Shown: piece by piece, positions 2,169-40,790 of the stretch | How the letters are laid out: each line of letters opens with the position of its first letter | Numbering within the stretch: the stretch's first letter is position 1 | Source: Methylocapsa palsarum | GTDB lineage: Bacteria; Pseudomonadota; Alphaproteobacteria; Rhizobiales; Beijerinckiaceae | NCBI RefSeq assembly: GCF_900114285.1 | Contig: NZ_FOSN01000001.1 | Span: forward strand, 124,001-188,000 | Direction of reading: 5' to 3' | DNA length: 64,000 bases | Notes under the pieces: generated by a model | Databases searched by the model: none | What the model was told of the DNA's origin: nothing | Seen by the model: only the letters and a program-made list of their open reading frames with translations | Position numbers and translations under genes: made by a program

Positions 2169-2411
2169 ATGGCCACGGAAGGGTTTTTCGTCGATTGGGA
2201 CGGCAACGCGCGCAGCACCGACGATCCCGGCGGCGGATATGCCTGCGAAACCGATCCCGCCGCGCGCTATGTCGCGGTGGTTTCGAAAAACGGCGCCCTT
2301 GTTCATGAGGGAACCTTCTACAAAAGCCTCGCCGATATCGAAAAAGCGGGCATCAAGGCGCCTCTCGTGCCGGGCTCGCACCCCTGGGCGAAAAAGTCGG
2401 ACGGGTTCTAG
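2169..2411 (+). CDS. Small conserved-looking hypothetical protein
   Basis: An 80-residue soluble protein beginning MATEGFFVDWDG, rich in Gly, Asp and Lys, without signal peptide or membrane segment. I do not recognise a family. It has good codon use for this genome and a plausible AAGG ribosome site, and it follows the FmdB-like gene on the same strand. Its stop codon TAG (2409-2411) coincides with the first bases of a palindromic repeat element. Confidence 0.68.
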   Translation: MATEGFFVDWDGNARSTDDPGGGYACETDPAARYVAVVSKNGALVHEGTFYKSLADIEKAGIKAPLVPGSHPWAKKSDGF

Positions 2412-2466
2412 AAGCGCGCTTTCCGATCGCATGCAGTCATGCGATCGATCAGAAATCGCTCCAGAA
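2409..2466. repeat. Palindromic repeat element R1 (stem type B)
   Basis: A copy of the dispersed palindrome. Central stem GATCGCATG at 2425-2433 and CATGCGATC at 2438-2446 with a CAGT loop, flanked by outer arms GCGCTTTCC on the left and the AGAAATCGCTCC variant on the right. It begins at the TAG stop of the small gene. Confidence 0.9.
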
Positions 2467-2561
2467 ACAAAAGCGTGAGTATATCCAACCGGAAGATGCT
2501 TCAGGAGCCGCGAAATCCTTAAGGCGCCTTCGGCAAGGGACGGCCTTCAGCAAGGGACAAA

Positions 2562-3333: not shown

Positions 3334-4533
3334 ATGTTCGTCTTGAATCCCGCCGATCCGACCGAGGTCGAGGCGGCCGTCGCGGAAGCCGCGGCCAACA
3401 GAACGCCGCTGGCGATCACGGGCCTCGCCTCCAAGGCGTCGCTCGGACGTCCGACGAACGCGATCCGACTCGACCTTTGCGCCCTCACCGGCGTCACCTT
3501 CTACGAACCCGAGGAACTGGCGCTGTCCGCCCTCGCCGCGACGCCCGTCGCAACGATCGAGGCGCTGCTCGCCGAGCATCATCAGGAGCTCGCCTTCGAA
3601 CCGATGTCCTTCGGCGCGCTCTACGGGACCGGCTCGGGCACGATCGGCGGCTGCCTCATGACCAACCTCTCCGGCCCGCGCCGGATCAAGGCGGGCGCCG
3701 CCCGCGACCATGTGCTCGGGATCAAGGCGGTGTCCGGGCGCGGCGAGGCCTTCAAGGCGGGCGGGCGGGTGGTCAAGAACGTGACCGGCTACGATCTTTC
3801 GCGCGGCCTCGCCGGATCATTCGGAACCCTCGCCGTCGCGACCGAGATCACCTTCAAGGTGCTGCCGCGCGCCGAAACGCTCGCGACCCTGGTTCTACCG
3901 GGTCTTGAATCCGAGGCGGCCGCGGCGGCTCTCTGCGCGGCGATGGGCGCTCCCGTCGACGTTTCCGGGGCCGCGCATCTCCCGCTCTTCGCCGCCGCGC
4001 GCCAGGGGTTTCCCCGCGCCGCCACGCTCCTGCGGCTGGAGGGTTTCGCGCCCTCTGTCGCCGCGCGGCTCGACCAGTTGGAGGCCGCGCTGCGACCCTT
4101 TGGCCGCGCCGAACGGCTTGATGCGGCGGCGTCGACGATCCTGTGGCGCGCGATCCGCGACGCCGCGCCGCTGGCCGAACATCTGGATTCGCTGATCTGG
4201 AAGATCTCGGTCGCGCCGAAGGCCGGCCCTCTGGTTGCGGCGGCGATCGGAAATGAGCTTCCGGTCGAGGCGATGTTCGACTGGTCGGGCGGCCTTGTCT
4301 GGCTGGCGCTCGATCCGGCCCATGGGTCGGCGGGCGCCGACGCGGGCGCCGGAATAATCCGCCGGGCGGTCGCGTCGCATGGCGGCGGCCACGCGACTTT
4401 GATGCGCGCGCCGATCGAAATCCGCGCCATCGTTCCCGTGTTCGAGCCACAGCCCGATGCGCTTAGGGGTCTCGCCGCGCGGCTGAAAGCGCAATTCGAC
4501 CCGCTCGGCATTCTGGAGCCGGGGCGGATCTAG
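3334..4533 (+). CDS. glcE: Glycolate oxidase FAD-binding subunit
   Basis: A 399-residue GlcE, one of two FAD-linked subunits of membrane-associated glycolate dehydrogenase, which oxidises glycolate to glyoxylate. It has an FAD-binding type 4 (PCMH) domain in roughly residues 1-170: PLAITGLASKASLG, the phosphate-binding GTGSGTIGGCLMTNLSGPRRI, and GGRVVKNVTGYDLSRGLAGSFGTLAV are all typical. The C-terminus ends FDPLGILEPGRI, the usual family ending. It is followed by glcF after a palindromic element that supplies the TAG stop. glcD, the catalytic subunit gene that normally precedes glcE, is not next to it. Confidence 0.93.
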   Translation: MFVLNPADPTEVEAAVAEAAANRTPLAITGLASKASLGRPTNAIRLDLCALTGVTFYEPEELALSALAATPVATIEALLAEHHQELAFEPMSFGALYGTGSGTIGGCLMTNLSGPRRIKAGAARDHVLGIKAVSGRGEAFKAGGRVVKNVTGYDLSRGLAGSFGTLAVATEITFKVLPRAETLATLVLPGLESEAAAAALCAAMGAPVDVSGAAHLPLFAAARQGFPRAATLLRLEGFAPSVAARLDQLEAALRPFGRAERLDAAASTILWRAIRDAAPLAEHLDSLIWKISVAPKAGPLVAAAIGNELPVEAMFDWSGGLVWLALDPAHGSAGADAGAGIIRRAVASHGGGHATLMRAPIEIRAIVPVFEPQPDALRGLAARLKAQFDPLGILEPGRI

Positions 4534-4582
4534 AGCGCTTTCCGATCGCATGAAGTCATGCGATCAATCGGAATATGTTCTA
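4531..4582. repeat. Palindromic repeat element R2 (stem type B) between glcE and glcF
   Basis: It begins with TAGAGCGCTTTCC, in which TAG is the glcE stop codon. The stem GATCGCATG (4544-4552), loop AAGT, CATGCGATC (4557-4565) follows, and it ends GGAATATGTTCTA. It sits inside the glcEF operon, 12 bases before the glcF start. Confidence 0.92.
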
Positions 4583-4594
4583 GGTCAGGACGAC

Positions 4595-6648: not shown

Positions 6649-6688
6649 TAGAGCATATTCCGATCGGATTGAATCAATCCAATCGATA
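6649..6688. repeat. Palindromic repeat element R3 (stem type A), overlapping the end of coaE
   Basis: TAGAGCATATTCCGATC leads into the stem GGATTG (6666-6671), AAT loop, CAATCC (6675-6680), then AATCGATA. The last codons and TGA stop of leftward coaE (6674-6688) are read from the element, so this copy partly rewrites the protein C-terminus. The right outer arm is missing. Confidence 0.88.
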
Positions 6689-7297
6689 GCCTTCAGGAGG
6701 CCGCGCATGTCCGCTCGCTCCCGCCAGAGCACGCAAGACGCCGCGCACCTGCCGTCGCGCGATCTCGAGCCCGTGGCCGGTGTCGATGATGAAATGCGAC
6801 CTCGCGCGTTTCTCCGCATCCGGCGTCTGTTTCGCCAGTATGACCGCGAGCCACTCCGGCGTCATGCCCCGCCGCCGGCCGACGCGGGCCTTTTGCACAG
6901 ATTCCGGCGCGCTCACCAGAACGACGGCGTCGACATTTTTTTCGCCGCCGGTCTCGAATAGCAAAGGAACGTCGAGAACGACGAGCCGCACGCCGCTCCG
7001 CCGCGCCTTTGCGAGGAAGGCGTCGCGCGAGGCGAAAACGAGCGGGTGCACGATCGTCTCCAGTCGGCGCAGCGCCGCGTCGTCCTCGAGCACAAGGGCG
7101 CCGAGCCGGCGGCGGTCCACTTCGCCGTTCACGACAACGCCGGGGAAAGCCGCTTCGATAGCGGCGGCGGCCGGCCCATTGTAGAGTTCATGGACCGTTG
7201 CGTCGGAATCATGCACGGGGACGCCCTCGGCGCGAAACATCGCGGCCGTTGTCGATTTGCCCATTCCGATAGATCCGGTGAGGCCCAAAACAACCAT
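6674..7297 (-). CDS. coaE: Dephospho-CoA kinase
   Basis: A 207-residue P-loop kinase performing the last step of coenzyme A synthesis: phosphorylation of the 3' hydroxyl of dephospho-CoA. Walker A is [12 protein letters not shown] at residues 5-16, followed by the CoaE-typical [14 protein letters not shown] and the lid region with RRGMTPEW. The final residues (YRLD and stop) come from a palindromic repeat element. The ATG at 7297 gives MVVLGLTGS, the family start. It is 13 bases downstream of aroE in the same operon. Confidence 0.94.
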
Positions 7298-17836: not shown

Positions 17837-18619
17837 ATGCTTAAAGCCCGCCTCATTCCCTGCCTCGACGTCAAGGACGGCCGCGTCGTCAAGGGCGTCA
17901 ATTTCGTCGATCTGCGCGACGCCGGCGATCCGGTCGAATGCGCCATCGCCTACGACGCGGCGGGGGCGGATGAACTTTGCTTTCTCGACATCACCGCAAG
18001 TCACGAGGATCGGGGCATCCTGCTCGACGTCGTCCAGCGCACGGCGGAGGCCTGTTTCATGCCGCTCACCGTCGGCGGCGGCGTGCGCACGCTCGAGGAT
18101 ATCCGCGCCCTGCTGCTTGCCGGGGCCGACAAGGCGTCGATCATGACCGCCGCCGTCGCCAACCGCGAATTTGTCCGGCAGGCGGCGCAAAAATTCGGCA
18201 ATCAGTGCATCGTCGTCGCCATCGACGCCAAGCAGACCGGCCCGTACCGCTGGGAAATCTTCACCCATGGCGGGCGCAAACCGACCGGGATCGACGCGGT
18301 TGACTACGCCCGGGAGGTCGTCGCCCTTGGCGCCGGGGAAATCCTGTTGACTTCGATGGATCGCGACGGCGTCAAGACCGGCTTCGACCTCGCGCTGACC
18401 CGCGCCGTGGCGGACGCCGTCAGCGTTCCCGTCATCGCCTCGGGCGGCGCCGGGACGCTCGAGCATCTCGTCGAGGGCGTCCGGGACGGCGGCGCCAGCG
18501 CGGTGCTCGCCGCCTCGATTTTCCATTTCGGCGAATTCACCGTCAGTGAGGCCAAGCGCTTCATGGCGCAAAAGGGCCTCCCGATGCGGCTCGATCCCGC
18601 GACGGAGCCGGCGCGATGA
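17837..18619 (+). CDS. hisF: Imidazole glycerol phosphate synthase cyclase subunit
   Basis: A 260-residue TIM-barrel cyclase that converts PRFAR and ammonia to IGP and AICAR. Catalytic D11 is in [10 protein letters not shown]19 in VVKGVNF, and the second catalytic Asp in IVVAIDAK near residue 130; D176-region TSMDRDG is present. Oddly, the conserved strand-4 segment normally read as S-I-N-(T/S)-A-A-V is SIMTAAV here, putting Met at position 103 where HisF enzymes usually have Asn. The codon is plainly ATG. Its stop overlaps the hisE start by four bases. Confidence 0.94.
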
Positions 18620-18933
18620 GCTTCACCCTCGACGATCTCGCGGCGATCGTCTCCGCCAGGGCGGGCTCCACCACGGAGGCCTCCTACACCAAGTCGCTGC
18701 TCGACGCCGGTCCGGCCCGCGCGGCGAAGAAGCTCGGGGAAGAAGCCGTCGAACTGGTGATCGCGGCGATGGAGGGCGAACCCCGCGCCATCGTCGCGGA
18801 AAGCGCCGATCTGCTTTATCATCTCGTCGTCGTCCTGCAGCAGCATGGCGTCGCGCTTGCAGACGTGCTGGCTGAACTCGAGCGGCGCACCGCCCGCTCC
18901 GGACACGAGGAAAAAGCGTCGCGGCCGGCCTAG
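18616..18933 (+). CDS. hisE: Phosphoribosyl-ATP pyrophosphatase
   Basis: A 105-residue MazG-like PRA-PH, the second step of histidine synthesis. It has [17 protein letters not shown] with the metal-binding Glu residues near 39-48 and [13 protein letters not shown] near 62-74. It ends the his cluster. The TAG stop (18931-18933) is also the first triplet of a palindromic repeat element. Confidence 0.93.
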
Positions 18934-19000
18934 AGCATATTCCGATCGGATTGAATCAATCCGATCGATAAGAATATGCTCATGTTTTTGACTCTGGAGC
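18931..19000. repeat. Palindromic repeat element R4 (stem type A), most complete copy
   Basis: Nearly perfect inverted repeat: left arm GAGCATATTCCGATC, core GGATTGAATCAATCC, right arm GATCGATAAGAATATGCTC. A tail ATGTTTTTGACTCTGGAGC (18982-19000) resembles the spacer between R5 and R6, so it appears to be part of a composite unit. It supplies the hisE stop codon and lies between hisE and coaA. Confidence 0.93.
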
Positions 19001-19022
19001 GCTGCGAGGACAAGGGGACTTC

Positions 19023-19982
19023 ATGGACCAGCGCGCCAGACCCGCGGCCCTCGCGTCGCCCTATCATCGGTTCAGTAGGAGCGAATGGGCGGCGCTCGCC
19101 GCCGACGCGCCGCTGACCCTGACGGCGGACGATCTTGCGCGGCTGCGCTCCACCAACGACCCGATCTCGCTCGAAGACGTCGCCGCGATCTACCTGCCGC
19201 TGTCGCGCCTGCTCTCGCTCTACGTCGGAGCCACGCAAGGCCTCTACAAGGCGACCCGGAGCTTCCTTGGCGCGGATGACGGCAAGACGCCGTTCATCAT
19301 CGGCGTCGCGGGTTCTGTCTCGGCCGGAAAATCGACGCTGTCGCGGGTGATGCAGGCGCTGCTCTCGCGCTGGCCCAACACGCCGAAGGTCGATCTCGTC
19401 ACCACCGACGGGTTTCTCTATCCGAACGCCGTCCTCGAGCGCGAGGATCTGATGGGAAAAAAGGGCTTTCCCGAAAGTTACGACAGCGCCGCCCTGCTGC
19501 GGTTCCTCTCCGACGTCAAGGCGGGGGAGCGCCATGTCGAGGCGCCGGTCTATTCGCATGTGGTCTATGACATCCTGCCGGGCGCGAGCGTCAAGGTCGA
19601 CCGGCCGGACATCCTGATCGTCGAGGGGCTCAACGTGCTGCTGCCGAGCCGCCCGGCGAAGGACGGCAGGGCGGCGCCCTTCGTCTCGGATTTCTTTGAT
19701 TTTTCGGTCTACCTGCACGCCAGCGAGCGCGATCTTGAGGACTGGTTCGTCGCCAGATTTATGCATCTGCGGCAGACCTCGTTCCGCGAACCGCAGAGCT
19801 ATTTCATCAAATACGCGGATCTGAACGATTCGGAGGCCGAGGCTGCGGCGCGCGACATCTGGACGAGGATCAACCTGCGCAATCTGCGCGAGAATATTCT
19901 ACCGACGAAGCCAAGAGCCAATCTCGTGCTGACCAAGGGCGCGAGCCACCGGATCGAGGAGGTGGAGCTGAGGAAGTTGTAG
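19023..19982 (+). CDS. coaA: Pantothenate kinase (type I)
   Basis: A 319-residue CoaA, the first committed step of coenzyme A synthesis. Walker [18 protein letters not shown] is near residues 97-113, followed by [15 protein letters not shown], the GFPESYD substrate motif, YSHVVYDI and LIVEGLNVL. Length and the C-terminal [21 protein letters not shown] match the family. The hisE-coaA order is common in Rhizobiales. No regulatory structure was seen apart from the element upstream. Confidence 0.95.
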
Positions 19983-20017
19983 GGTTGCTTTAGTCGGCGA
20001 TCGGCTTGCGGCGCAAG

Positions 20018-20911
20018 CTACCTTGGCGCGCCGGTCCTGAAATACGCGCGAACAATATCTTCAAATTTCTGGGCGGCCGGAGTCGTCAGCCCTGCTGGAC
20101 CCTTGAGAAGACACACCGTGCGTTGAGGCGGCGCGGGTTGGATGCGTCCGAAATAAAGATCGAGCTTGGGCGAGACGCTGCTGGCGTCGGCGGGAACGAT
20201 CGACACACAGGCTCCGTCGCTTACGGCGCTCATGATCGCCGAGAACGTGTTGAATTCGAGCACGCGCTTCGGGCTGACGCCATGATGTTGTAGAAAGGCG
20301 TCGATCGAGGCCCTCGTCGTGTAGCCGTGAGAGAGCAGCGCCAGGCGCTGATCGGCGAGCGCTCGCGGCTTTATAGTCGGTAAAGCGGCGAAGGCGTGGC
20401 TCCGCGCGCAGACGAAAGCGAGGCTGTCCGTGTAGAGCTTGTAGGCGGCGAGCGGCGGCGCCACCGGGCCGATGCCAACGCCAAGACTGAGTTCTCCGGA
20501 CGCGAGTCGATCAAAAATTTCGGCGTTTGCAAGCTCCAGCACCTCGATGTCGACGGCGTCATGACAGCGAATGAATTGAGACACGATGGCCGGCAGATAC
20601 AGCGCGTTGAAGGTCTGCGTCACTCCGAGCCTCAGACGCCCCCGCTTCAGCCCGCGATAGGCGTCGATCGTCTCGCGCAGCGCATGCGTGACGGCGAGAG
20701 CGCGCCGGGCGTGATCGACTGCGATCACGCCAGCCTCCGTCAACCTGACGATACGGGCGGAGCGATCGAACAGCCGGACGCCGAGATCATCCTCCAAATC
20801 CTTGATCGTCTGCGACAACGCCGGCTGTGACACGTTCAGCGCGCGCGCGGCGCGCGTGAAGCTCAGTTCGTCGGCGATCCCGACGAGATAGCGGAATTGC
20901 CGCATCTGCAT
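20018..20911 (-). CDS. LysR-type transcriptional regulator
   Basis: About 297 residues starting MQMRQFRYLVGIADE, with a GGAG site upstream that favours ATG 20911 over the ATG at 20935. The N-terminal helix-turn-helix spans roughly residues 4-62 (FTRAARALNVSQPALSQTIKDLEDDLGVRLFDR), and a periplasmic-binding-like effector domain follows (about 90-290). It is divergent from a cupin and a DapA-family gene, with a T-N11-A dyad between, so it most likely controls them in response to their substrate. The effector is unknown. Confidence 0.9.
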   Translation of the reverse strand: MQMRQFRYLVGIADELSFTRAARALNVSQPALSQTIKDLEDDLGVRLFDRSARIVRLTEAGVIAVDHARRALAVTHALRETIDAYRGLKRGRLRLGVTQTFNALYLPAIVSQFIRCHDAVDIEVLELANAEIFDRLASGELSLGVGIGPVAPPLAAYKLYTDSLAFVCARSHAFAALPTIKPRALADQRLALLSHGYTTRASIDAFLQHHGVSPKRVLEFNTFSAIMSAVSDGACVSIVPADASSVSPKLDLYFGRIQPAPPQRTVCLLKGPAGLTTPAAQKFEDIVRAYFRTGAPR

Positions 20912-20926
20912 AACGACTCCGATATC

Positions 20927-20941
20927 ATAAGGCATTCTTAT
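20927..20941. promoter_or_regulatory. Candidate LysR box
   Basis: ATAAG-GCATT-CTTAT is a dyad that contains the T-N11-A signature of LysR-type operators. It lies in the 114-base space between the divergent LysR gene and the cupin gene, 16 bases upstream of the regulator start. Confidence 0.55.
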
Positions 20942-21025
20942 TGTCAGTATTAAATTCGTGTCTTTGACTTATCCAAGCCCCACGGCGATCATTACGCCGA
21001 AATCCAACCTCCGCAGGGTCGCCGC

Positions 21026-21478
21026 ATGAGCACGCAGACAAAGTTTCATTCCGCTGATTTCGACAAGACGCCGCCCACCTTCGCTTCGACGCTGCCGGAC
21101 CGCCTCGTTCACCGCGGCGTTGAAAAGGAGGATACGCGCGCCGCCTATTCCGTGGAACGCAAGCACCCTGTGCATTTTGTCGATCTGCCCTCGAACGCTG
21201 TCAGCGTGACCGTCGGCGGCCTTGCGCCCGGGGGCCGCTCCAACCGGCATCGGCACACTTATGAAACCATTCTCTACGTGCTCGAAGGCCGCGGCTACTC
21301 AATGATCGAGGATCGAAAGATCGAGTGGGAGCCTGGCGACGCCCTCTACATTCCGGTCTGGGCCTGGCACCACCATGTCAACGCAGATGCGGAAAAGCCC
21401 GCGCGCTACCTCGCCTGCGAGAATGCGCCCATGCTGCAAAATCTTGGACGACTCGCAATCCGCGAAGAAGAGAAGTGA
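21026..21478 (+). CDS. Cupin-domain protein
   Basis: A 150-residue single-domain cupin. Motif 1 is RHRHTYETILYVLEGRG (about residues 74-90), with two His and the Glu as metal ligands. Motif 2 is GDALYIPVWAWHHHVN (about 108-123), supplying the last His. No signal peptide. Such proteins are metal-dependent isomerases, dioxygenases or sugar-acid binding enzymes. It is nine bases before a DapA-family aldolase and divergent from a LysR gene, suggesting a small catabolic operon. Substrate unknown. Confidence 0.87.
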   Translation: MSTQTKFHSADFDKTPPTFASTLPDRLVHRGVEKEDTRAAYSVERKHPVHFVDLPSNAVSVTVGGLAPGGRSNRHRHTYETILYVLEGRGYSMIEDRKIEWEPGDALYIPVWAWHHHVNADAEKPARYLACENAPMLQNLGRLAIREEEK

Positions 21479-21487
21479 GACGCATAC

Positions 21488-22393
21488 ATGACCATCACCT
21501 CACTCGAAGGCATCATCGCTTATCCAGTCACGCCCTTTCGTCCGGACGGGTCCGGCATCGATGAACAAGCGTTTCGGCGGGTTACCGAGAATCTCCTGCG
21601 TTCTCATCCGGCCGCCATCGCGTTTCTCGGCAGCGCGGGAGAAAGCGCCTACCTGACCGATGATGAATGGCGCCGCGCCGCGAAGGTCGGCGTCGAGACC
21701 GTCACGGGGCGCGCGCCGGTCATTCTGGGCGTCAGCGAGCTTACGACTGCCGCGGCGGTGTCGAAGGCGCGATACGCGAAGGAGATCGGCGCCGACATGC
21801 TCATGGTGATTCCCGTCTCCTACTGGAAACTCGCCGAGAACGAAATCTACAGCCACTTCGAGGCTATCGCGGCGGCGACCGATCTGCCCATCATGGCGTA
21901 TAACAACCCGGCGACAAGCGGCGTCGACATGCAGCCGGCCTTGCTCGTGCAGCTCGTTTCGAAGATCAAGACCGTCTGCTTCGTCAAGGAGAGCAGCGGC
22001 GACCTCAACCGCATGCACGCGATCCGGACGTTGTCGAACGGCGAAATTCCATTCTACAACGGCGCCAATCATCTCACCCTTGAAGCTCTCGCCGCCGGCG
22101 CGAGCGGCTGGTGTACGGCTGCGCCCAATCTCCTCGACGACCGGCCGCATGCGCTCTTCGAGCACATGCGCAAAGGACGCCTTGCCGAGGCGCGGGAGCT
22201 TTTCTATCAATTGCTGCCGATACTCGGCTTCATCGTCGTTGGCGGTCTGCCGACAACCGTGAAAGCCGGGCTGAGGCTGCGTGGTCTCGACGCCGGCGAT
22301 CCACGTCCGCCTCTCAAACCTCTGCCGGACGCCCCGCGGCGTGAACTCGAAGGTTTTCTCGCGACGATCGGCGTCGGAGCGATTTCCGCCTAG
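21488..22393 (+). CDS. DapA-family aldolase/dehydratase
   Basis: A 301-residue TIM-barrel enzyme of the dihydrodipicolinate synthase / N-acetylneuraminate lyase superfamily. The carboxylate-binding loop is GSAGESAYL (near 46-54), the catalytic Tyr is in MAYNNPATSG (about 137-146), and the Schiff-base Lys is in CFVKESSGD (about 163-171). The GSAGE loop differs from the G-T-T-G-E loop of true DapA, so this is probably not the lysine-pathway enzyme but a keto-acid aldolase or dehydratase acting with the cupin upstream. Its TAG stop is the start of a palindromic element. Confidence 0.87.
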   Translation: MTITSLEGIIAYPVTPFRPDGSGIDEQAFRRVTENLLRSHPAAIAFLGSAGESAYLTDDEWRRAAKVGVETVTGRAPVILGVSELTTAAAVSKARYAKEIGADMLMVIPVSYWKLAENEIYSHFEAIAAATDLPIMAYNNPATSGVDMQPALLVQLVSKIKTVCFVKESSGDLNRMHAIRTLSNGEIPFYNGANHLTLEALAAGASGWCTAAPNLLDDRPHALFEHMRKGRLAEARELFYQLLPILGFIVVGGLPTTVKAGLRLRGLDAGDPRPPLKPLPDAPRRELEGFLATIGVGAISA

Positions 22394-22440
22394 AGCATTC
22401 CGATCGGATTGAATCAATCCAATCGACAAGAATATGCTCA
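22391..22440. repeat. Palindromic repeat element R5 (stem type A)
   Basis: TAGAGCATTCCGATC, core GGATTGAATCAATCC, then AATCGACAAGAATATGCTCA. The initial TAG is the stop codon of the DapA-family gene. The left arm is two bases shorter than R4 (GCATTCC instead of GCATATTCC). Confidence 0.92.
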
Positions 22441-22452
22441 AGCTTTTGACAC

Positions 22453-22503
22453 TAGAGCATATTCCATCGATCGCATGACTTCATGCGATCGGAAAGCGCT
22501 CTA
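22453..22503. repeat. Palindromic repeat element R6 (stem type B, hybrid arms)
   Basis: TAGAGCATATTCC (a type-A left arm), then core GATCGCATG ACTT CATGCGATC, then GGAAAGCGCTCTA (the type-B arm inverted). It lies 12 bases after R5, making a tandem pair between the convergent DapA-family gene and priA. Confidence 0.92.
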
Positions 22504-22510
22504 AGCTCCC

Positions 22511-24757
22511 TCACAAAAAGCTCTGCGGCTCGATGTCCACCGCGACCCCGACGCCGCCCCGCGCTTTCGGCCCCGCCGCCAGCAGCGCGCGCAGAAATCC
22601 CTGCAGATCGGCGTTTCGCGGCGAACGCGCCAGAAGCCGGAACCGGTGGCGCCCGCGGATGATCGCGATCGGCGCCTCGGCCGGCCCGAGGAGGCGGATC
22701 TCGTCATCGCGCGGAAGGCCTCCCGCGGGCGCGAGCCGCCAGGTGGGCGAGGGCGGCAGCTCATAGGCCGCTCTCGCCAGCGCCCGCGCATGCGTCTCCG
22801 CCGAGGCCGCGTCCTTGCCCGAGACGATCAGGGCCGCGAGCCGTCCGAACGGCGGCAGACCCGCGCGCAGCCGCTGCTGCGTCTCTTCAAGATAGAATTT
22901 TTCACAATCGCCCGACAAAAGCGCGCGCATCACCGGATGTTCCGGCTGGAAGGTCTGGACCAGAGCCTCGCCGCGCGTGTCGAACCGCCCGGCCCGGCCG
23001 GTCACCTGCTGTAGTAGCTGGAACGTGCGCTCCGCCGCGCGCGGGTCGCCGGACGAGAGCCCGATATCGGCGTCGATCACGCCGACGACGGAGAGCAGCG
23101 GGAAATTGTGCCCCTTGGCGACAAGCTGGGTGCCGATGATAAGGTCGCACTCGCCCTGCGCGATGGCGTCGAGTTCGTTGCGGAGCCGTTTCGACCCGCC
23201 CGGAAAATCGGACGAGAGGACCATTGTGCGGGCATCCGGAAACGTCTCCGCCGCCTCCTCGGCCAAACGCTCGACGCCGGGGCCGCAGGCGGACAATTGA
23301 TCGACAGCCTCGCAATTGGGGCACATCTGCGGGCGGCGCTCGATATGGCCGCAATGATGGCAGACGAGCGCGCGGCGGAAGCGGTGATCGACCAGCCAGG
23401 CGGTGCAATTCGGGCATTGGAAGCGATGGCCGCAGCTGCGGCAGAGCGTGAGGGGCGCGTAGCCGCGCCGGTTGAGAAACAGCAGCCCCTGTTCGCCGCG
23501 CTCGAAAGCGCTCGTGAGCGCGGCTTTGAGCCTTGGTGAGATCCACTTGCCGCGCCCGGGCGGCTCGAGCCGCATATCGACAGCGGTGAGGCGCGGCAGG
23601 GCGCGGCCCTTGTAGCGGCCGTCGAGCCGCACGCGGCCATAGCGCCCCTGTTCCGCGTTGACCCGGGTCTCGATCGAGGGCGTCGCCGAGGCGAGGATCA
23701 CGGCGCTCGCCTCGATTTGCCCGCGCACCACGGCCATGTCGCGGGCGTGATAGGAGACGCCGTCCTCCTGCTTGTAGGCGGCGTCGTGCTCTTCATCGAC
23801 GACGATCAGGGCGAGATCGGAGAAAGGCAGATACAGCGCGGACCGCGCCCCCGCCACGACCTTGACCTCGCCGCGGGCGAGCGCGCTCCAGACGCGGGCG
23901 CGCTTGCGGGCGCCGACCGCCGAGTGCCATTCCGCCGGCCTTGCGCCGAACCTCGCGGCGAAACGGTCGAGAAACTGCGCGGTGAGCGCGATTTCCGGCA
24001 TCAGGACCAGGGCCTGACGTCCGTCCCGCACGGCGGCGGCGATGGCCTCGAAATAGACCTCGGTCTTGCCTGATCCGGTGACGCCCTCGAGCAGGGTCAC
24101 CGAGAAGGCGCGGGCGCGGACGGCGGCGGTCAAAATCTCCGCCGCCCTCGCCTGGTCCGGCTCGAGGTCCGGCGCGGCGTAGCCGGAATCGCAGGGCAGA
24201 GCCGCGGGTTCCGGCGGCAGGGCGATCGTCTCCAGCGCGCCCTCGTCCACGAGCCCGTCGATCACGCCGGCCGAGCAGGCGGCGGCCTCGGCGAGCGCGG
24301 ACTTCGGGAAGATCAGCCCGCCTTCCGCCGCGGCGAGCACGCGGCTTCGCGCCGGCGTCATCCGTTGCGGCGGCGGACCGGCGAGGCGGACCCCGACGCG
24401 GACCGGCTCGGGTCCGGCGTGGGACGGCGCCCGCACGCCCATGCGCAGCACCATGCCGCGCGGGCTCATGGTCCAGCGCGCCACCCAGTCGATGAATTTG
24501 CGCAGGCGCGGCTGAAGCGGCGGCCAGTCGAGCTTGGCCGCGACGCTCTTGAGGTTCGAGGCGCCCGGCGGCGCGGGCCTGATGTCCCAGACCACACCCG
24601 CCGCAAGGCGCGAGCCGAGCGGCGCCTCGACGAAATCGCCGGGCGCGAGGTCCATGCCTGCCGGGACGGTATAGGAAAAGGCGGCGTCGAGCGCGACCGG
24701 AACCAGCACGTCGGCGATGCGCCCGGCGGATTTATCGTCTTCGCCGTCTTTGCCCAA
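22511..24757 (-). CDS. priA: Primosomal protein N' (replication restart helicase)
   Basis: A 748-residue superfamily 2 helicase. The N-terminal DNA-binding region begins near [16 protein letters not shown], Walker A is [15 protein letters not shown] (about residues 218-232), the DEEH box is [15 protein letters not shown], and a two-zinc module of eight cysteines ([24 protein letters not shown] and beyond) lies near residues 440-490. [12 protein letters not shown] and QVTGRAGRF are helicase motifs V and VI. The start is TTG at 24757, overlapping the end of terC by 26 bases; no in-frame ATG exists nearby, so the start is tentative. Confidence 0.94.
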
Positions 24758-25595
24758 TTTTGCGCGCGCCCGGTTGCTTCGGCGGCGAAGCCGTTGGAGG
24801 AGGGGCGGAAGACGAGGCCGGAGGAGCCGAAAGGCTGGATCGGCGGGCGGGGGGATAATGCGTTCCCGCGCGACTTTTCTTCCTTCGCGCCAGCATGTTC
24901 AGCGCCTCGATCACGCCGGAAAACGCCATCGCCGCGTAAATGTAGCCCTTGGGGAAATGAAAGCCAAATCCGTCGGCGACGAGCGTCGTCCCGATCAGCA
25001 GGAGAAACCCGAGCGCGAGCATCACGATGGTCGGGTTCTTGTGGATGAACGCGGCGAGCGCGTCGGCGGCGAGGATCATCCCGGCGACGGCGAGGATCAC
25101 GGCGGTGATCATGATCGGCACGCTGTCGGTCATGCCGACGGCGGTGATGATCGAATCGATCGAAAAGACGATGTCGAGCAGGACGATCTGGGCGACGACG
25201 GTCCCGAACCTCGCGGGCTTCGCCGGCTTTTCCGGCTCCTCCTCGTCCGTGTCCACGGTTTCATGGATTTCGGACGTCGCCTTCCAGACCAGAAACATCC
25301 CGCCCCCGATCAGGATGAGGTCGCGCCAGGAGAAATCGCGGCCGAATGCGGCGAACAGGGGCTCGGTGAGACGGACGATAAACCCCGCCGCCGCGACGAG
25401 CAAAATCCGGAAGATCAGCGACAGGCTGATGCCGATCCGTCGTGCGTTGGAGCTCGAGGGATGCGGCAGCTTGTTCGAGAGGATGGCGATGAAGACGAGG
25501 TTGTCGACCCCGAGCACCAGCTCCATGACGACCAGCGTCGCCAGCGCGGCCCAGGCCGAAGGGTCATGCGCGAGCGCAAGGAGATCACGGATCAA
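24732..25595 (-). CDS. TerC-family integral membrane protein
   Basis: A 287-residue polytopic protein. Seven or so helices contain the TerC hallmarks [14 protein letters not shown] (near residues 25-38) and [17 protein letters not shown] (about 138-154), with acidic residues inside membrane segments. TerC proteins are linked to tellurite resistance and to manganese export or supply of exoenzymes. A Ser/Pro/Ala-rich basic tail of about 50 residues follows the last helix and overlaps priA. It could equally be called YgdQ/YoaE-like. Confidence 0.88.
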
Positions 25596-25861
25596 GAAGC
25601 TTTTCCGGTGCCGGTCGGGGAAGGCCCGCGCCCAGCGCGGCGCGGCGGAGAGGGTTGCGGGAATGGCTCATGTAGCCCCGTTTCGTGCCGCAAGACTGGG
25701 GCCGGGTCAAGGCGGGCCCTCGTGGCGGCGATCGCGGACGCCCCTCCCTTGCATCGCGCCGCGCAAACCCATAGATGACCTCAGCCGAGGCAGGCCCGCT
25801 CCTGCCCCCGGACCCTTGCCCCAAAAGCCCCGCCTCGCCCGCCCGGCGCCACGAGAGTTTC

Positions 25862-26434
25862 ATGCAGCATCCCCCCTCCGGCCCCGATCTCTGGCACGCC
25901 ACCACCATCATCATGGTGAAAAAAGGCGCCCGCACCGTGATCGGCGGCGACGGCCAGGTCTCGATCGGGCAGACCATCGTCAAGGGCAACGCCAGGAAGG
26001 TGCGCCGCCTCGCCAAGGGCGAAGTCATCGGCGGCTTCGCCGGGGCGACCGCCGACGCGTTCACTTTGTTCGAACGGCTCGAAGGCAAGCTTGAGCAATA
26101 CCCTGGCCAGCTCATGCGCGCCTGCGTCGAGCTCGCCAAGGACTGGCGCACCGACCGCTACCTGCGCCGCCTCGAGGCGATGATGCTCGTCGCCGACAAG
26201 GAGGCCGCGCTGGTGCTGACCGGCACCGGCGACGTGCTGGAGCCGGAGGCCGCCGACGAGGGCTCGGTGATGGGGATCGGCTCCGGCGGCAATTACGCGC
26301 TCGCCGCCGGCCGGGCGCTGCTTTCGACCGATCTCGACGCCGAGGACATCGCCCGCCGGGCGTTGACGATCGCCTCCGAAATCTGCGTCTATACGAACGG
26401 CAATTTCGTGCTCGAATCGATTGCCTCGAAATGA
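25862..26434 (+). CDS. hslV: ATP-dependent protease HslV (peptidase subunit)
   Basis: A 190-residue proteasome-related peptidase. The catalytic N-terminal threonine is exposed by cleavage in [13 protein letters not shown], leaving TTI, about 13 residues after the [25 protein letters not shown] and [14 protein letters not shown] are typical of HslV. An earlier in-frame ATG at 25775 would give an unusual 43-residue propeptide and is not favoured. It is followed by hslU. Confidence 0.94.
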
Positions 26435-26490
26435 CTCTCGAGACGCGAGCGGAGCCCGCCCGGAATGAACTTTCCGCGAAAAGAGATCCG

Positions 26491-27801
26491 ATGAACGATT
26501 TTTCCCCCCGCGAGATCGTCTCCGAGCTCGACCGTTTCATCGTCGGCCAGAACGACGCCAAGCGCGCCGTCGCCATCGCGCTGCGCAACCGCTGGCGCCG
26601 CCTGCGCCTCGAGGGGCCGATGCGCGAGGAGGTTCTGCCGAAGAACATCCTGATGATCGGGCCGACCGGCTGCGGCAAGACCGAAATCTCGCGCCGCCTC
26701 GCGAAACTCGCGGGCGCGCCGTTCCTGAAGGTCGAGGCGACGAAGTTCACCGAGGTCGGCTATGTCGGGCGCGACGTCGAGCAGATCGTCCGCGATCTGG
26801 TCGAGACCGCGATCAGCATGGTCCGCGACGAAAAGCGCAAGTCCGTGCGCGCTCGCGCCGAACTCGCCGCCGAGGACCGCATTCTCGACGCGCTCGTCGG
26901 CGTCAACGCGTCCGCGGCGACGCGCGACTCTTTCCGCAAGCGGCTGCGCACGGGCGAACTCGACGACAAGGAAATCGAGATCGAGGTGGCGCAATCGGCG
27001 CCGTCGATGCCGATGTTCGAATTGCCCAACATGCCGGGCTCGTCGGTCGGCGCGATCTCGCTCGGCGATATTTTCGGCAAGGCGCTCGGCAAGACCGCGA
27101 AGCCGCGCCGCACCATTGTCAAGGACGCGGCGGAGCCCCTGATCCTCGAGGAAAGCGACAAGCTGGTCGATCAGGAGCAGATCGTGCAGGAGGCGATCCG
27201 CGACGTCGAAAACAACGGCATCGTGTTTCTCGACGAACTCGACAAGATCTGCGCGCGCGAGGGCCGCGGCGGCGGCGCCGACGTCTCGCGCGAAGGCGTG
27301 CAGCGCGACCTTTTGCCCCTGATCGAGGGCACCAGCGTTTCGACCAAGCATGGCGTCGTGAAGACCGACCACATCCTGTTCATCGCCTCCGGCGCGTTCC
27401 ATGTCTCGAAGCCCTCGGACCTGCTGCCGGAATTGCAGGGCCGCCTGCCGATCCGGGTGGAATTGGCCCCGCTGACCGAGGACGATTTCCGCCGCATCCT
27501 GACCGAGACCGAAGCGAGCCTCATCAAGCAATACGAGGCCCTGCTCGCGACCGAGGGCGTCGAGCTCGTCTTCACCCCCGACGCCGTGATCGCCCTGGCG
27601 CGGGTGGCGGTGCAGGTCAACTCCACCGTCGAGAACATCGGCGCGCGGCGGTTGCAGACGGTGATGGAGCGCGTGCTGGACGAGGTGAGCTTCACCGCCT
27701 CCGACCGGGCCGGGGAGAGGGTCGAGATCGACGGGGCCTTCGTCGAGCGCAACATCGGCGACCTCGCCAAGAACGCGGATTTGAGCCGGTTTATTTTGTA
27801 G
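26491..27801 (+). CDS. hslU: ATP-dependent protease HslU (ATPase subunit)
   Basis: A 436-residue AAA+ unfoldase that feeds substrates to HslV. N-terminus [20 protein letters not shown], Walker [18 protein letters not shown] (about 55-71), GYVGRDVE pore motif, Walker [11 protein letters not shown], sensor-2 region [17 protein letters not shown] and the conserved C-terminus LSRFIL that docks into HslV. The open frame extends to ATG 26431, which overlaps the hslV stop by four bases, but the family N-terminus fits 26491. Heat-shock control by the rpoH product is expected but no promoter was identified. Confidence 0.95.
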
Positions 27802-27954
27802 TTGGACGCCCCCTACGGCGATGGAATGGGCGCGCCGTCGCGCCGAAATCTTTTGCGCCGCGTGCTTCGGCCGCCGCGCGGGGCGGGGCCAAGCTGCGGT
27901 CCTTGCGCGTAGGTTCTTGCGCGTTGTGATGTAGTCAAAAACTGTTCAGCCATT

Positions 27955-27978
27955 GCGATTCACGTGGCGATTCACGCG
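27955..27978. repeat. Two adjacent 12-base direct repeats upstream of the recombinase gene
   Basis: GCGATTCACGTG (27955-27966) and GCGATTCACGCG (27967-27978) differ by one base. They lie about 50 bases before the tyrosine recombinase and could be protein-binding repeats. No function is shown. Confidence 0.7.
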
Positions 27979-28029
27979 GGCGCGCGAAAGGGCTAAGCTC
28001 GGTCGCTCGAATCGGATTGTGGAGCGCCG

Positions 28030-29241
28030 ATGACAGATCCCTCCCCTGCGCCTGCGCCCGCCCCTGCCTTTCCTCGTGATCCTGCGATGCGGCGCGCCCT
28101 GGGGCTTGACGCGCTCGCCGCGATCCTACCGATGGACCGGCGCGACCGGCTCGCCGAACTTCTGACCGACGACGACGTCGCCACCTTGAAGCATCTCGCC
28201 CGCGAGGGGATGGGCGAGAACAGTTTGCGGGGGCTCGCGTCCGACCTCGCCTATCTCGAGGCTTGGGCTTTGGCGTCGACGTCAAGTCCCTTGCCCTGGC
28301 CGGCGCCTGAGGCGCTCGCCTTGAAATTCGTGGCGCATCATTTGTGGGACCCGGCCCGGCGCGACGCCGACCCGAGCCACGGGATGCCGGCGGATGTCGC
28401 GGCGAGCCTGCGGGCGCAGAATCTGCTAAGGGCCGAGGGCCCGCACGCCCCGGCGACGGTGCGCCGGCGGCTCTCGAGCTGGGCGACGCTGCACCATTGG
28501 AAAGGCGCCGACGGTCCGTTCAAGTCGGCGCCGCTCCGCGCGGCGCTCCGTCTTTCGGTGCGCGCCGGCGCGCGGCCGCGGATGCGCAAGAGCGCCCGCG
28601 CCGTGACGCTCGACGTGCTGGAGCAACTCCTTTCAACCTGCGGCTCGGACCGGCTTGTCGATGCGCGCGATGCGGCGTTGCTGCTCGTCGCGTTCGGCTC
28701 GGGCGGGCGGCGCCGGAGCGAAGTCGCCGGACTGCGGATCGAGCAATTGATCGAGGAGGGGGCGATCCTTGAAGATCCGGCCGATCCCGGCTCGACGTCT
28801 TTGCCGTGTCTTTCGATCAGGCTGGGGCGGACCAAGACGGCGAAGGCTGACGAGGACACGAGGGTTCTTCTCGTCGGGCGCCCGGTCGAGGCGTTGCGGG
28901 AATGGCTGGCGCGCGCCGGCATCGCAAAAGGCCCGGTGTTCCGTGCGATCGACCAATGGGGCGGCCTCGACGATAAAGCGATGACGCCGCAGGCGGTGAA
29001 CTGGATCGTAAAGCGGCGCGCCGCCGCGGCCGGGCTCGACCCGAAGCTTTATTCGGCGCATGGACTTCGCTCCGGCTATCTGACCGAGGCGGCGCGGGAA
29101 GGCGTCCCCTTGCCCGAGGCGATGCAGCAAAGCCAGCACCGCTCGATCCAGCAGGCGGCAAGCTATTACAACGACTCGGAACGCAAGCAGGGTAGGGCGG
29201 CGAGGCTGGCCTCAATCCCGAAAGTCCTCCCCCAATGCTAG
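28030..29241 (+). CDS. Tyrosine recombinase / phage-type integrase
   Basis: A 403-residue site-specific recombinase. An N-terminal SAM-like DNA-binding region (about 45-180) precedes the catalytic domain. Box I Arg is in GSGGRRRSEVAGL (about 220-232), a Lys follows in GRTKTAK, box II is SAHGLRSGYLTEAA (His and Arg, near 338-351), and the later His and nucleophile Tyr are in QSQHRSIQQAASYYND (near 363-378). The full R-K-H-R-H-Y set is present, so it should be active. No tRNA, att duplication, cargo or partner gene is adjacent. The N-terminus is Pro-Ala rich. Its TAG stop begins a palindromic element. Confidence 0.88.
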   Translation: MTDPSPAPAPAPAFPRDPAMRRALGLDALAAILPMDRRDRLAELLTDDDVATLKHLAREGMGENSLRGLASDLAYLEAWALASTSSPLPWPAPEALALKFVAHHLWDPARRDADPSHGMPADVAASLRAQNLLRAEGPHAPATVRRRLSSWATLHHWKGADGPFKSAPLRAALRLSVRAGARPRMRKSARAVTLDVLEQLLSTCGSDRLVDARDAALLLVAFGSGGRRRSEVAGLRIEQLIEEGAILEDPADPGSTSLPCLSIRLGRTKTAKADEDTRVLLVGRPVEALREWLARAGIAKGPVFRAIDQWGGLDDKAMTPQAVNWIVKRRAAAAGLDPKLYSAHGLRSGYLTEAAREGVPLPEAMQQSQHRSIQQAASYYNDSERKQGRAARLASIPKVLPQC

Positions 29242-29289
29242 AGCGCTTTCCGGCCGAATGTGCTCATTCGGTCGATCAGAAATCGCTCC
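29239..29289. repeat. Palindromic repeat element R7 (stem type C)
   Basis: TAGAGCGCTTTCCGG, core CCGAATG TGCT CATTCGG, then TCGATCAGAAATCGCTCC. TAG is the recombinase stop. It has the same arms as R1 but a different, internally paired core. Confidence 0.9.
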
Positions 29290-29303
29290 GGATTCATAAA
29301 CTT

Positions 29304-29345
29304 GAGCGCATTCCGGCCGGAGGGAGTCATTCGGTCGATCAAGAT
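29304..29345. repeat. Palindromic repeat element R8 (degenerate)
   Basis: GAGCGCATTCCGGCCG, then AGGGAGTCATTCGG and TCGATCAAGAT. The right half matches R7 but the left half of the core has decayed. It follows R7 after 14 bases. Confidence 0.78.
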
Positions 29346-29437
29346 AAATCCCCGGCGGTTTTCCAGATAAAAGCCCCTGTGGAATCCTGATCGCGAGTGA
29401 GGGTCGCCTGTAGCCTGGCAGGCGGTCTGAGCGACGC

Positions 29438-30532
29438 TCACTCCAAAACCACATATTCACGCGGCGCGCCGTTTTTCGGCCCGTCGAAGAAAATCAGCAC
29501 CCGCAGGGGCTTGACGCCCAGCACCGTCACAGCCTCCGCCTTGGCGCGTTTTTTCCTGTCGAACACATCCTCGAGAACCGCGATCTGCTTCACTGCGCCG
29601 CCGGGTCGCGGCTCGACCGTGAACAGACTGAACGGGATATGCCACTGCTCCTGCGCCGGGCCCGCGAGTACCAGCAATCTGCCGTCCGGCATCGCCGCCA
29701 TGTCGCGAACGCCGACATTGCAGCCAAGCGCGATCGGGATGATCTCCGGCTCTCCCCGAAGCGGCTCATGGCCAGGCGCGAACAGCGCGCTGACCTTGAC
29801 GCCGACGAGATAGGCGGCGCCCTCGATCGTCGGCGCCCTGAGGCCGGCGAAGAGTTTATCGCCGACGACGGCGAGGCCTTCGATATTGAGCCCGTCCTCC
29901 TGGATGAGATGCTTGCCGAAAAAGGGGCCGATTTTCGGCGCCGTCCGTAGCGCGTCGCCGAGCCGGTAGGTCGTCTCGACGATCCGCGCGCCGTTCTCGT
30001 CGGCCCTCAGGCGGGCGAGGATGAAGGAAGACAGGACGAATTCGTTGCCCGCCCGCGAGCATCCGTGCGAGCCGACAATGTAGAAATAGGGCGCGGCGTA
30101 AGCGACGCCCTCGCCGTCGAGATCCTTGAACACCGGCTCCTGGTCGAGGCAGCCCTGCGCCAGAGGCGAGGCCGCCACCGCCGCGGGCTTCTCGCCGAGC
30201 GTCGAAGGACTCGGCACGTCGTCGATCAGCGGCGCTTTTTTTCCGGCGGCGATATGGCCGTTGTCGATGGTGAAAAACTGGGCCGACCGGCTCTGATCGT
30301 TGATCGCGAGGCAGAGCCCCGAACGATCGCACGCCGCTCCGCTCAGATCTTCGGCGATCTTGTCCTTGCCGTTGTCCTTCTCGAGAAAGGGCGGGTCGAC
30401 CAGATAGAGCTGCACCGCCTGCAGCGGGCGCAGCGGCTCGGCAAAGGCCGCGACGATAGCGGGCGGCAGCCCCATGAGGGCGGACCCGGCGGCCAGGACT
30501 AAAGCGGCGATAGCTCCGGCGGCTGTGCGCAC
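29438..30532 (-). CDS. DUF3616 domain protein, exported
   Basis: A 364-residue protein with an N-terminal signal peptide (hydrophobic stretch about residues 5-28, likely cleavage after AFA near 31). The rest matches the DUF3616 pattern: EDLSGAACDRSGLCLAINDQ, GVAYAAPYFYIVGSHGCSR, EDGLNIEGLAVVGDKLFAGLRAP and a beta-propeller-like rhythm. Function is unknown; the family resembles extracytoplasmic phytase-like or esterase-like propellers. It is divergent from trpS. Confidence 0.8.
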   Translation of the reverse strand: MRTAAGAIAALVLAAGSALMGLPPAIVAAFAEPLRPLQAVQLYLVDPPFLEKDNGKDKIAEDLSGAACDRSGLCLAINDQSRSAQFFTIDNGHIAAGKKAPLIDDVPSPSTLGEKPAAVAASPLAQGCLDQEPVFKDLDGEGVAYAAPYFYIVGSHGCSRAGNEFVLSSFILARLRADENGARIVETTYRLGDALRTAPKIGPFFGKHLIQEDGLNIEGLAVVGDKLFAGLRAPTIEGAAYLVGVKVSALFAPGHEPLRGEPEIIPIALGCNVGVRDMAAMPDGRLLVLAGPAQEQWHIPFSLFTVEPRPGGAVKQIAVLEDVFDRKKRAKAEAVTVLGVKPLRVLIFFDGPKNGAPREYVVLE

Positions 30533-30797
30533 CCTTCTCTCCTTCCGCGATCAGACCTTGCGCAAAAACATATATCGGTTTACGCGACGCCCCAAACCAG
30601 TCTCGTCCAGGCGTTGAAACCGAAGGCCCATTTTGCCTTCGGCCGTGCGACCAAGTAAGAGGACGGAACAGATCGCAACCCCACCGCATGACGGACGGAC
30701 CTCCGTTCGCAGCCCTGGAGCACGCCCGGTCGAAGACCCCTGGTCGAAGGTCTTTGTCGCGCATCCTTATTCGTCCCGCCGAAGTTCTGGAGCCCGA

Positions 30798-31832
30798 ATG
30801 CCAAAGTTCAAGGAACGCGTTTTCTCCGGCGTGCAGCCGACGGGAAACCTGCATCTCGGCAATTATCTCGGCGCGATCGTCAAGTTCGTCGAACTGCAAA
30901 AAACCCACGACTGCATCTATTGCGTCGTCGATCTTCACGCGATCACGGTGCCGCAGAAGCCGGAGGAACTGAAGTCGAGCATAAGGGAAGTGACGGCGGC
31001 CTTTATCGCCTCGGGCGTCGATCCCAAACAGCATATCGTCTTCAACCAGAGCCAGGTCTGCGAACATGCCGAACTTGCCTGGATCTTTAATTGCGTCGCG
31101 CGCATCGGTTGGCTGAACCGCATGACGCAGTTCAAGGAGAAGGCGGGCAAGGACCGCGAGAACGCCTCGGTCGGACTTTACGCCTACCCATGCCTGATGG
31201 CCGCCGACATCCTCGTCTACCGCGCGACGCATGTGCCGGTCGGCGAGGATCAGAAACAGCACCTCGAACTCGCCCGCGACATCGCGCAGAAGTTCAATCT
31301 CGATTTCGGAGAGCGGATCGCGGCGCTCGGCCATGGCGACGCATTCTTTCCGCTGCCCGAGCCCCTGATCCAGGGTCCGGCCGCGCGCGTGATGAGTTTG
31401 CGCGACGGCGCGAAGAAAATGTCGAAGTCGGACCCTTCGGATTATTCGCGCATCAATCTTGCGGACGACGCCGATATCATCGCGCAGAAGGTTCGCAAGG
31501 CGAAGACCGACCCGGAACCTCTGCCTTCCGAGGTGGAAGGACTCGCCAAACGGCCCGAAGCGGAAAACCTCGTCGGGATCTTCTCGGCGCTCAACGGGCA
31601 GACCAAGCTCGATGTTCTTCGCCAGTTCGGCGGCGGCAATTTTTCGGCGTTCAAATCGGCGCTGGTCGATCTGGCGGTGGCGAAGCTCGGTCCGATCGGC
31701 GCGGAAATGAAGCGCCTGAAAGACGATACGGACTATATCGACAAGGTGCTGCTCGACGGCGCCTCGAGAGCCAAGGTGATCGCCAGGGAAAACCTCGCGG
31801 CGGTGAAGGATATCCTCGGCTTCGTGCGGTAG
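30798..31832 (+). CDS. trpS: Tryptophanyl-tRNA synthetase
   Basis: A 344-residue class Ic synthetase. The HIGH-type motif is [13 protein letters not shown] (about residues 13-25) and the KMSKS loop is [10 protein letters not shown] (near 206-215). [17 protein letters not shown] is the tRNA/adenylate region. The ATG at 30798 with a GGAG site gives the family start [16 protein letters not shown]; a longer frame to 30633 is not conserved-looking. The 265-base leader (30533-30797) shows nothing I can name. Confidence 0.95.
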
Positions 31833-31839
31833 CGACAGA

Positions 31840-40498: not shown

Positions 40499-40744
40499 CT
40501 ACAGGATCGCGTCCGCCGAGCCCGCCGCCGCGAACGCAAGCACCACAATCCACGGCGGCGTCTTTCAAACCGTCAGCAGCAGGAAACCCGCCAGCGCGAG
40601 AGCGAAATCGCGCGGGTTCAACACGGCGTTGGTCCAGACCGGAAGGTCGAGCGCCGCGCCCAGAATGCCGACGACGGCGGAATTGGCGGCGCGGATCGCA
40701 GTCCAGAACGGCAGAAATCGCTTTATAATCAAAGGCTTGGGCAT
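40499..40744 (-). pseudogene. Remnant of chromate transporter (ChrA) C-terminus
   Basis: Reading leftwards from about 40744, the frame gives RFLPFWTAIRAANSAVVGIL, then PVWTNAVLNPRDFALAL and LLLTV, an in-frame TGA (40565-40567), then KTPPWIVVL and a final TAG. This matches the end of ChrA-family chromate transporters, which carry LPFW, A-A-V-V-G-(I/L)-L, P-V-W-T and W-K-x-P-P-W in this order; the TGA sits exactly where W is expected (TGG to TGA). The rest of the gene is absent and the break coincides with palindromic element R9. Non-functional. Confidence 0.75.
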
Positions 40745-40790
40745 AGTCTTGTCGATTAGATTGATTCAATCCGATCGGAATATGCTCTAG
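40742..40790. repeat. Palindromic repeat element R9 (stem type A, inverted)
   Basis: On the minus strand: TAGAGCATATTCCGATC, GGATTGAATCAATC, then TAATCGACAAGA. Its TAG is the stop codon of leftward parB. The far arm is incomplete and abuts the ChrA remnant. Confidence 0.9.

Follow-up and report, generated by a model that had tools for sequence, protein, structure and literature searches.

The window, a 64,000-nucleotide stretch of the Methylocapsa palsarum genome (G000), contains seven copies of a dispersed palindromic repeat, delimited with a 116-position profile and its successor (Table 1). The original prediction described nine related elements; related sequence does lie at all nine coordinates, but these are pieces of seven copies and not nine elements. 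By profile match alone the seven span 2413-2487, 4531-4584, 6651-6688, 18931-19003, 22393-22503, 29239-29343 and 40707-40789. Copy 5 is the only whole unit in the window with both ends recognisable (its far end is CTA, followed by A), and the rest are truncated, internally deleted or degenerate. In six of the seven copies the TAG at the end of the repeat is also the end of a predicted gene. The gene ending at copy 2 is one that we take to be glcE-like, and the shape of that copy probably results from an internal deletion. No copy occurs past 40.8 kb, as originally noted, but this absence is unremarkable because 5 of 38 inter-copy gaps over the surrounding 448 kb reach at least 23 kb.

Table 1. 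Copies of the palindromic repeat in the 64-kb window; the strand is the direction from hairpin A to hairpin B.
Copy	Position	Strand	Structure	Gene end
1	2409..2490	+	hairpin A 2412-2463, spacer, degenerate remains of hairpin B	TAG 2409-2411 terminates predicted ORF 2169-2411
2	4531..4584	+	lone hairpin with A outer arm and A core, B-type right arm	TAG 4531-4533, stop of ORF 3334-4533 (FAD_binding_4)
3	6649..6696	-	lone degenerate B hairpin without right arm	
4	18931..19003	-	hairpin B 18931-18983, spacer, stub of A inner arm	TAG 18931-18933, stop of ORF 18616-18933 (PRA-PH; hisE-like)
5	22391..22503	-	B hairpin 22391-22441, spacer, A hairpin 22453-22503	TAG 22391-22393, stop of ORF 21488-22393 (DHDPS family)
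6	29239..29355	+	degenerate; rare CCGAATG core (29239-29290), decayed second hairpin 29302-29355	TAG 29239-29241, stop of ORF 28030-29241 (Phage_integrase family)
7	40707..40789	+	A inner arm remnant 40713-40725, spacer, hairpin B 40737-40789	CTA 40787-40789, TAG stop of minus-strand ORF 40787-41674 (ParB)

The repeat unit is bipartite and 112-116 nt long, with a hairpin A, a spacer of about 12 nt and an inversely oriented hairpin B enclosed by the outer ends TAGAGC...GCTCTA. Hairpin A is composed of the outer arm TAGAGCGCTTTCC, the core GATCGCATG/CATGCGATC and the inner arm AGAAATCGCTCCA; hairpin B is composed of the inner arm GAGCATAKTCTT, the core GGATTG/CAATCC and the outer arm GGAATATGCTCTA. 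This anatomy was read from the 3-kb surroundings of 30 genome matches that ranked among the strongest; one locus (L015) is shorter, at least two (L019, L037) have one hairpin incomplete, and 29 of the 30 were used to build the 116-position profile. A bulge of about 4 nt adjoins the inner arm of each hairpin in canonical orientation and thus fixes the direction of the hairpin. Read as hairpins, those at 22453 and 40737 run opposite to the others in the window. When the nine window hairpins were folded singly, seven beat their shuffles (at most 2 of 200 shuffles fold equally well), the one at 6649 was barely better (23/200) and the one at 29302 was no better (125/200). Two window hairpins, 22453-22503 and 4531-4582, are hybrids that combine an A core with a B-type arm, which suggests deletion or exchange between the unit halves at their common GATC stretch.

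A covariance-model search of the genome and its relatives had been proposed together with the original prediction. With seven of the nine window hairpins as input, the model returned at least 155 hairpin matches at E <= 1 in the M. palsarum genome (about 150 candidates scored; a whole copy contributes two hairpins) and matches at E <= 0.01 in 23 of 40 genomes, M. palsarum included. The arm GGAATATGCTCTA has 102 exact occurrences in the M. palsarum genome, and its reversed control has none. A profile search of two contigs of this genome (C46 and C55) identified 69 merged copies in 834,751 bases, which extrapolates by proportion to about 340 copies in 4.1 Mb and disposes of the possibility that just nine copies exist. 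The three swappable cores of the original prediction do exist, but GCATG and GGATTG belong to opposite ends of one unit and CCGAATG is rare; exact matches in the same 835 kb number 40, 31 and 3, respectively, one of the three being the window copy.

Among the other genomes of the same genus, 13 of 14 match the model, and genomes of other genera have 0 to 96 matches each. The complete 5.2-Mb genome of one same-genus relative (G008) has no model match at E 0.01, despite containing IS630 matches. Plasmids also carry relatives of the unit: 5 of 72,556 plasmid records match, two of them with most of the query, and the matching plasmids are from Methylocella tundrae, Methylosinus trichosporium OB3b and Methylosinus sp. 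C49. Rfam has no match in the window at gathering scores, and a literature search, with subscription papers, including those on RUP and RIME, outside its reach, recognised no publication on this palindrome family.

The unit is mobile DNA that carries no gene, and it has moved recently in close relatives. The genomes G002 and G014 are 97.8% identical over 88 kb, and alignment of a 100-kb and a 400-kb stretch of each revealed six clean sites at which the whole unit is present in one genome and absent from the other. The unit is flanked by TA/TA at three of them (C153:75241, with one base altered beyond the far TA; C1:165918, where the first base of the unit is altered; and C1:669), by TA plus one further TA at C1:81952, by TG/TG at C1:154109 (empty site CTGG) and by TA/CA at C1:297191 (empty site CTAG). 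TA or TG is therefore duplicated at five of the six clean sites. Excluded from the six were C1:182674, which is filled but not clean, and C1:334801, where a 36-nt difference lies within a copy. At another locus (L084, G002:C1:4904) the sister genome G014 is without hairpin B and a lone hairpin A remains; loss of this kind offers an origin for the lone hairpins of the window.

The sampled genomes supplied 80 full-length copies, and in 66 of them both ends could be located; the dinucleotide is TA on the left in 43 and on the right in 39. In the 26 copies with TA at both ends, the outside bases are C or T in 49 of 52 cases, and the target is therefore YTAR. A four-base duplication, YTNR, was considered as C1:165918 fits it, and was dropped because the base before the left TA disagrees with the base inside the right end in other copies. 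Departures from the TA rule are frequent in the base next to the far end of a copy, with C in place of T or, on the opposite side, G in place of A; the recent insertion G002:C1:297191 shows one as well. Elsewhere in the M. palsarum genome (G000:C47:205691-205964) three like hairpins stand in a row with a 111-nt period; insertion of the unit into the terminal TA of a resident copy would give such an arrangement.

The unit has terminal inverted repeats and contains no transposase gene, as is the case for MITEs. IS630-type transposases (PF13358) were found in 11 of 14 genomes scanned, with three matches in M. palsarum. Thirty PF13358 loci were scanned for TA-flanked inverted ends with the end sequence left unspecified; 11 yielded an end pair, and 7 of these 11 start with GAGC. 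The seven GAGC loci correspond to six copies (L152 is the same as L163) of four elements, in G000, G001, G007 and G025. The G025 copy (L140) has the ends TAGAGCATTTTCCGATC and TAGAGCGTTTTCCTATC, and TTGAATC lies in its second end at the same distance from the terminus that the hairpin B loop has in the unit. Among IS insertions chosen for exact TAGAGC/GCTCTA ends, all 17 distinct ones, eight of which are copies of one G001 element, have C/T before and A/G after the TA, that is, YTAR.

With the hexamer used for selection left out, 20 IS ends (10 loci) agree with the unit on average at 12.7 of 21 positions, versus 7.4 of 21 for 613 TAGAGC sites elsewhere (Mann-Whitney p = 8e-12, for ends that are not independent). 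Single IS ends range from 8 to 17 of 21 positions; the pair of L140 in G025 reaches 16 and 17, and that of L183 in G001 14 and 17. The IS630 and unit ends are thus similar, not identical, and the close partners lie in genomes other than that of M. palsarum, where the one IS630 copy with both ends found (L134) is among the poorer (8 and 11 of 21). The nearest transposase piece, that of L140, matches 13 of 40 genomes; used as a query at E <= 1e-15, it has no match in G000, G002, G004 or G014. These four are the genomes richest in unit matches and include the two with observed insertions; the responsible IS630 copy may have been lost, may be too diverged for the search or may be absent from the drafts. 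An IS5/IS427 parent was rejected: six PF13340 loci of M. palsarum were scanned, and their ends differ from those of the unit (two loci with TA-flanked GGTCC ends) or were not found (four loci, one of which, L126, adjoins a unit copy). The ends and the target rule point to an IS630-type transposase as the probable mover, and the unit is best read as a non-autonomous MITE of the IS630/Tc1-mariner type (probability about 0.85).

Gene ends were compared with copy ends using a simple codon model trained on the M. palsarum genome and applied to the other genomes, which is not a standard gene finder. In the 835-kb sample, 29 of 69 copies have a gene stop within 4 nt of their end, and all 29 stops are TAG. 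Background YTAR sites outside gene bodies and copies lie at stops in 96 of 851 cases (11%), which gives p = 8e-11 for the excess, or 1e-9 when weighted by the target tetranucleotide (expectation 12.5%). Copies were also found at stops in G002 (5 of 13; 4 TAG, 1 TAA; p 0.01) and G014 (5 of 12; 3 TAG, 1 TAA, 1 TGA; p 0.005), two counts that are not independent as they have copies in common, and in G004 (4 of 18; 3 TAG, 1 TGA; p = 0.06). TAG ends 159 of the 611 genes predicted in the M. palsarum sample, TAA ends 99, and 29 of the TAG stops are element ends. In this part of the genome, an element forms the end of roughly one in twenty predicted genes and supplies about 18% of TAG stops.

At three of the six empty sites the TAG was already the stop of a positively scored ORF (140, 277 and 130 codons; coding scores of 16, 56 and 32) and is unchanged after insertion; no scored stop was found at the other three. 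Applied to the 23 full-length stop-associated copies, a strict pattern finds a far-end TA in 8; the next base is G or A in 6 of these and C or T in the other 2. Behind an altered end, a TA is also present in at least one more stop-associated copy (C55:159270). With a far-end TA in 8 of 23 copies, two of these followed by C or T, a TAR stop preceding the insertion is unproven for most copies. Orthologues were found for five of the six window genes that end at a copy, the integrase-like gene having none in the stretches searched. Four of them extend further than the window genes (GlcE by 4, HisE by 3, DapA by 6 and ParB by 1-2 residues), and that of ORF 2169-2411 ends alike. Thus, part of the M. 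palsarum stops may have been made or moved by insertion. None of the 17 IS insertions lies at a scored stop, in short loci scored with a codon model from another genome.

With 4 copies within genes and 2 at sequence edges omitted, 63 intergenic copies remain in the sample. Convergent gaps hold 22 of them versus 18% of intergenic bases, and divergent gaps hold 6 versus 28% of intergenic bases, a bias that fits promoter avoidance and a role at transcript ends alike. There is no support for an intrinsic terminator in window positions 18001-32000, where none of 25 terminator-like sites lies over a copy hairpin; one such site (29367-29351) reaches the final bases of copy 6, a decayed one. The mobility of the unit, its IS630-like ends and the frequent identity of its end with the stop codon of a gene were all missed by the original prediction.

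Pairing within the hairpins was evaluated on 93 full-length copies from six genomes (58 from M. palsarum), aligned by sequence, with a consensus structure of 40 pairs. Standard pairs occupy 94.3% of cells versus 25-46% after sliding the partner by 1-3 columns; the cores are not random as to pairing, and the earlier claim that pairing is maintained while the cores change is upheld. Two-sided changes occur in 160 cells, versus 12-50 in slid versions and a mean of 46 in shuffled ones. The number of pairs with a two-sided change is 22, above all 200 shuffles (mean 9.8, maximum 15) but not above every slid version (these give 8-24), and this pair count alone therefore proves nothing. The independence of these changes is overstated, as the copies are related and the structure was taken from the alignment's own consensus. 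Cores are not exchanged at a single site, two of the three being opposite ends of one element, and much of the double change lies between species or subfamilies (pair 19-30 CG/AT, pair 85-99 GC/AT). The A core is GATCGCATG in G000 and GATCGAATG in G002, G014 and G004, and the B core is GGATTG in G000 and CAGATCG in G002 and G014, in a core survey that required a hairpin and so shows variety, not frequency.

Within the M. palsarum genome, 220 cells differ from the consensus. The change affects one side of the pair in 190 of them, breaking it in 116 and leaving it paired in 74; in the remaining 30 it affects both sides, with pairing kept in 23 and lost in 7. Transitions alone would break the pair in half of one-sided changes. 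Since 116 of 190 one-sided changes break the pair, selection on individual copies is not supported. Column variation in this genome is 7.1% in core stems, 4.1% in arm stems and 11.3% in unpaired positions. The selection on a hairpin or cruciform originally proposed agrees with the retention of pairing across species but not with the changes in single copies. It is concluded that the hairpin matters for those copies that spread, or that copying between arms maintains it, and that individual copies drift.

REP, REPIN and BIME elements consist of two inverted hairpins and a spacer and reach high copy numbers. The two inverse hairpins, the copy number and the row with a 111-nt period would suit REPIN doublets moved by a RAYT (TnpA-REP, a Y1 transposase). 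However, PF01797 (Y1_Tnp) has no match at E <= 1e-5 in G000, G002, G004, G005, G007 or G008, although the same search is positive in 5 of 14 control genomes; the lack of a RAYT reported for the window thus extends to the entire M. palsarum genome, and the description as a dispersed palindromic family without RAYT is borne out. The unit also differs from REPINs in that TA or TG is duplicated at most of the six insertion sites, and Y1 single-strand insertion is, to our knowledge, not known to duplicate either. On the absence of Y1_Tnp and the target duplication, movement by a RAYT was rejected as extremely improbable. Hairpins that serve the cell as protein-binding sites or cruciforms, kept by selection locus by locus and not mobile, would explain why pairing persists across species and why stem columns vary less than unpaired ones in M. 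palsarum. Such hairpins would not be expected to be present or absent at six sites between genomes that are 97.8% identical, to leave no match in the same-genus G008 or to undergo common one-sided, pair-breaking changes; this explanation is very unlikely, and as a full account it is already contradicted.

Palindromes may also be upheld, and core changes spread, by templated repair in which one arm is copied onto the other, without selection. Quasi-palindrome correction is an established mutational process, and double changes are frequent at some core pairs. Yet one-sided broken cells outnumber two-sided paired cells in M. palsarum (116 versus 23), and since most changes within this genome break pairs, correction cannot be fast; templated repair is a possible but doubtful account. 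Copies at stop codons might instead be retained for a benefit, by supplying a ready TAG and a 3' hairpin for protection of the RNA end, termination or insulation of convergent genes. The 29 of 69 copies at stops, the enrichment in convergent and depletion in divergent gaps, and the intact near-end TAG beside often altered far ends agree with this, although the near ends were selected for TAG. On the other side, the hairpins are not followed by a T-run, many pairs are broken in single copies, and the target rule, if genes and promoters are avoided, would by itself give a bias in this direction; retention for benefit is therefore unlikely. A related suggestion, offered tentatively and with considerable doubt, is that the element lands in the TA of a TAG or TAA, rebuilds the stop with a hairpin directly behind it, and that such copies are then co-opted as transcript 3' ends. 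A plain mobile element is the most likely reading, with co-option at gene ends possible.

For the IS630-type MITE, a mechanism can be proposed from the sequence comparisons. A transposase of the IS630 family, acting in trans, would recognise the ends TAGAGCRYWTTCCGATC... and insert the 112-nt unit into YTAR sites with duplication of the central TA. Behind each end stands its own complement, and each half therefore folds into a hairpin. The first base of the unit behind the TA is G; a unit that enters the TA of a stop codon, TAG or TAA, would therefore restore TAG in place and so leave the upstream protein unchanged. Stop codons would be safe landing sites, and for this reason many copies would be found at them; the stop excess is thus probably explained by tolerance and not by benefit.

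ERIC-type MITEs are likewise short and TA-ended with terminal inverted repeats. RUP of Streptococcus pneumoniae, a 107-bp derivative of IS630-Spn1 with 108 intergenic copies and a TA target (PMC2229807), resembles the unit in its IS630-similar ends, its target and its lack of a gene of its own. It belongs to another host, and the consulted portion of that source mentions neither paired terminal hairpins with changing cores nor an excess at TAG stops; the likeness is one of description. The same portion describes Correia/NEMIS elements of other bacteria as short and TA-ended with terminal inverted repeats (PMC2229807), again a likeness by description. RIME and other rhizobial palindromes, according to the consulted portion of PMC2245857, are repeated intergenic elements of a related order of bacteria and are likened to the unit by description only.

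These observations give an account of a palindrome family that had none, as a mobile element that can be tested and has recently moved in close relatives. The unit would provide a clean case in which the choice of target and the first base of a transposon together let it enter gene ends with the protein unchanged. They also carry a warning: compensatory changes seen in a bacterial hairpin may reflect competence for transposition or copying between arms, and not a function at the site where the hairpin is found.
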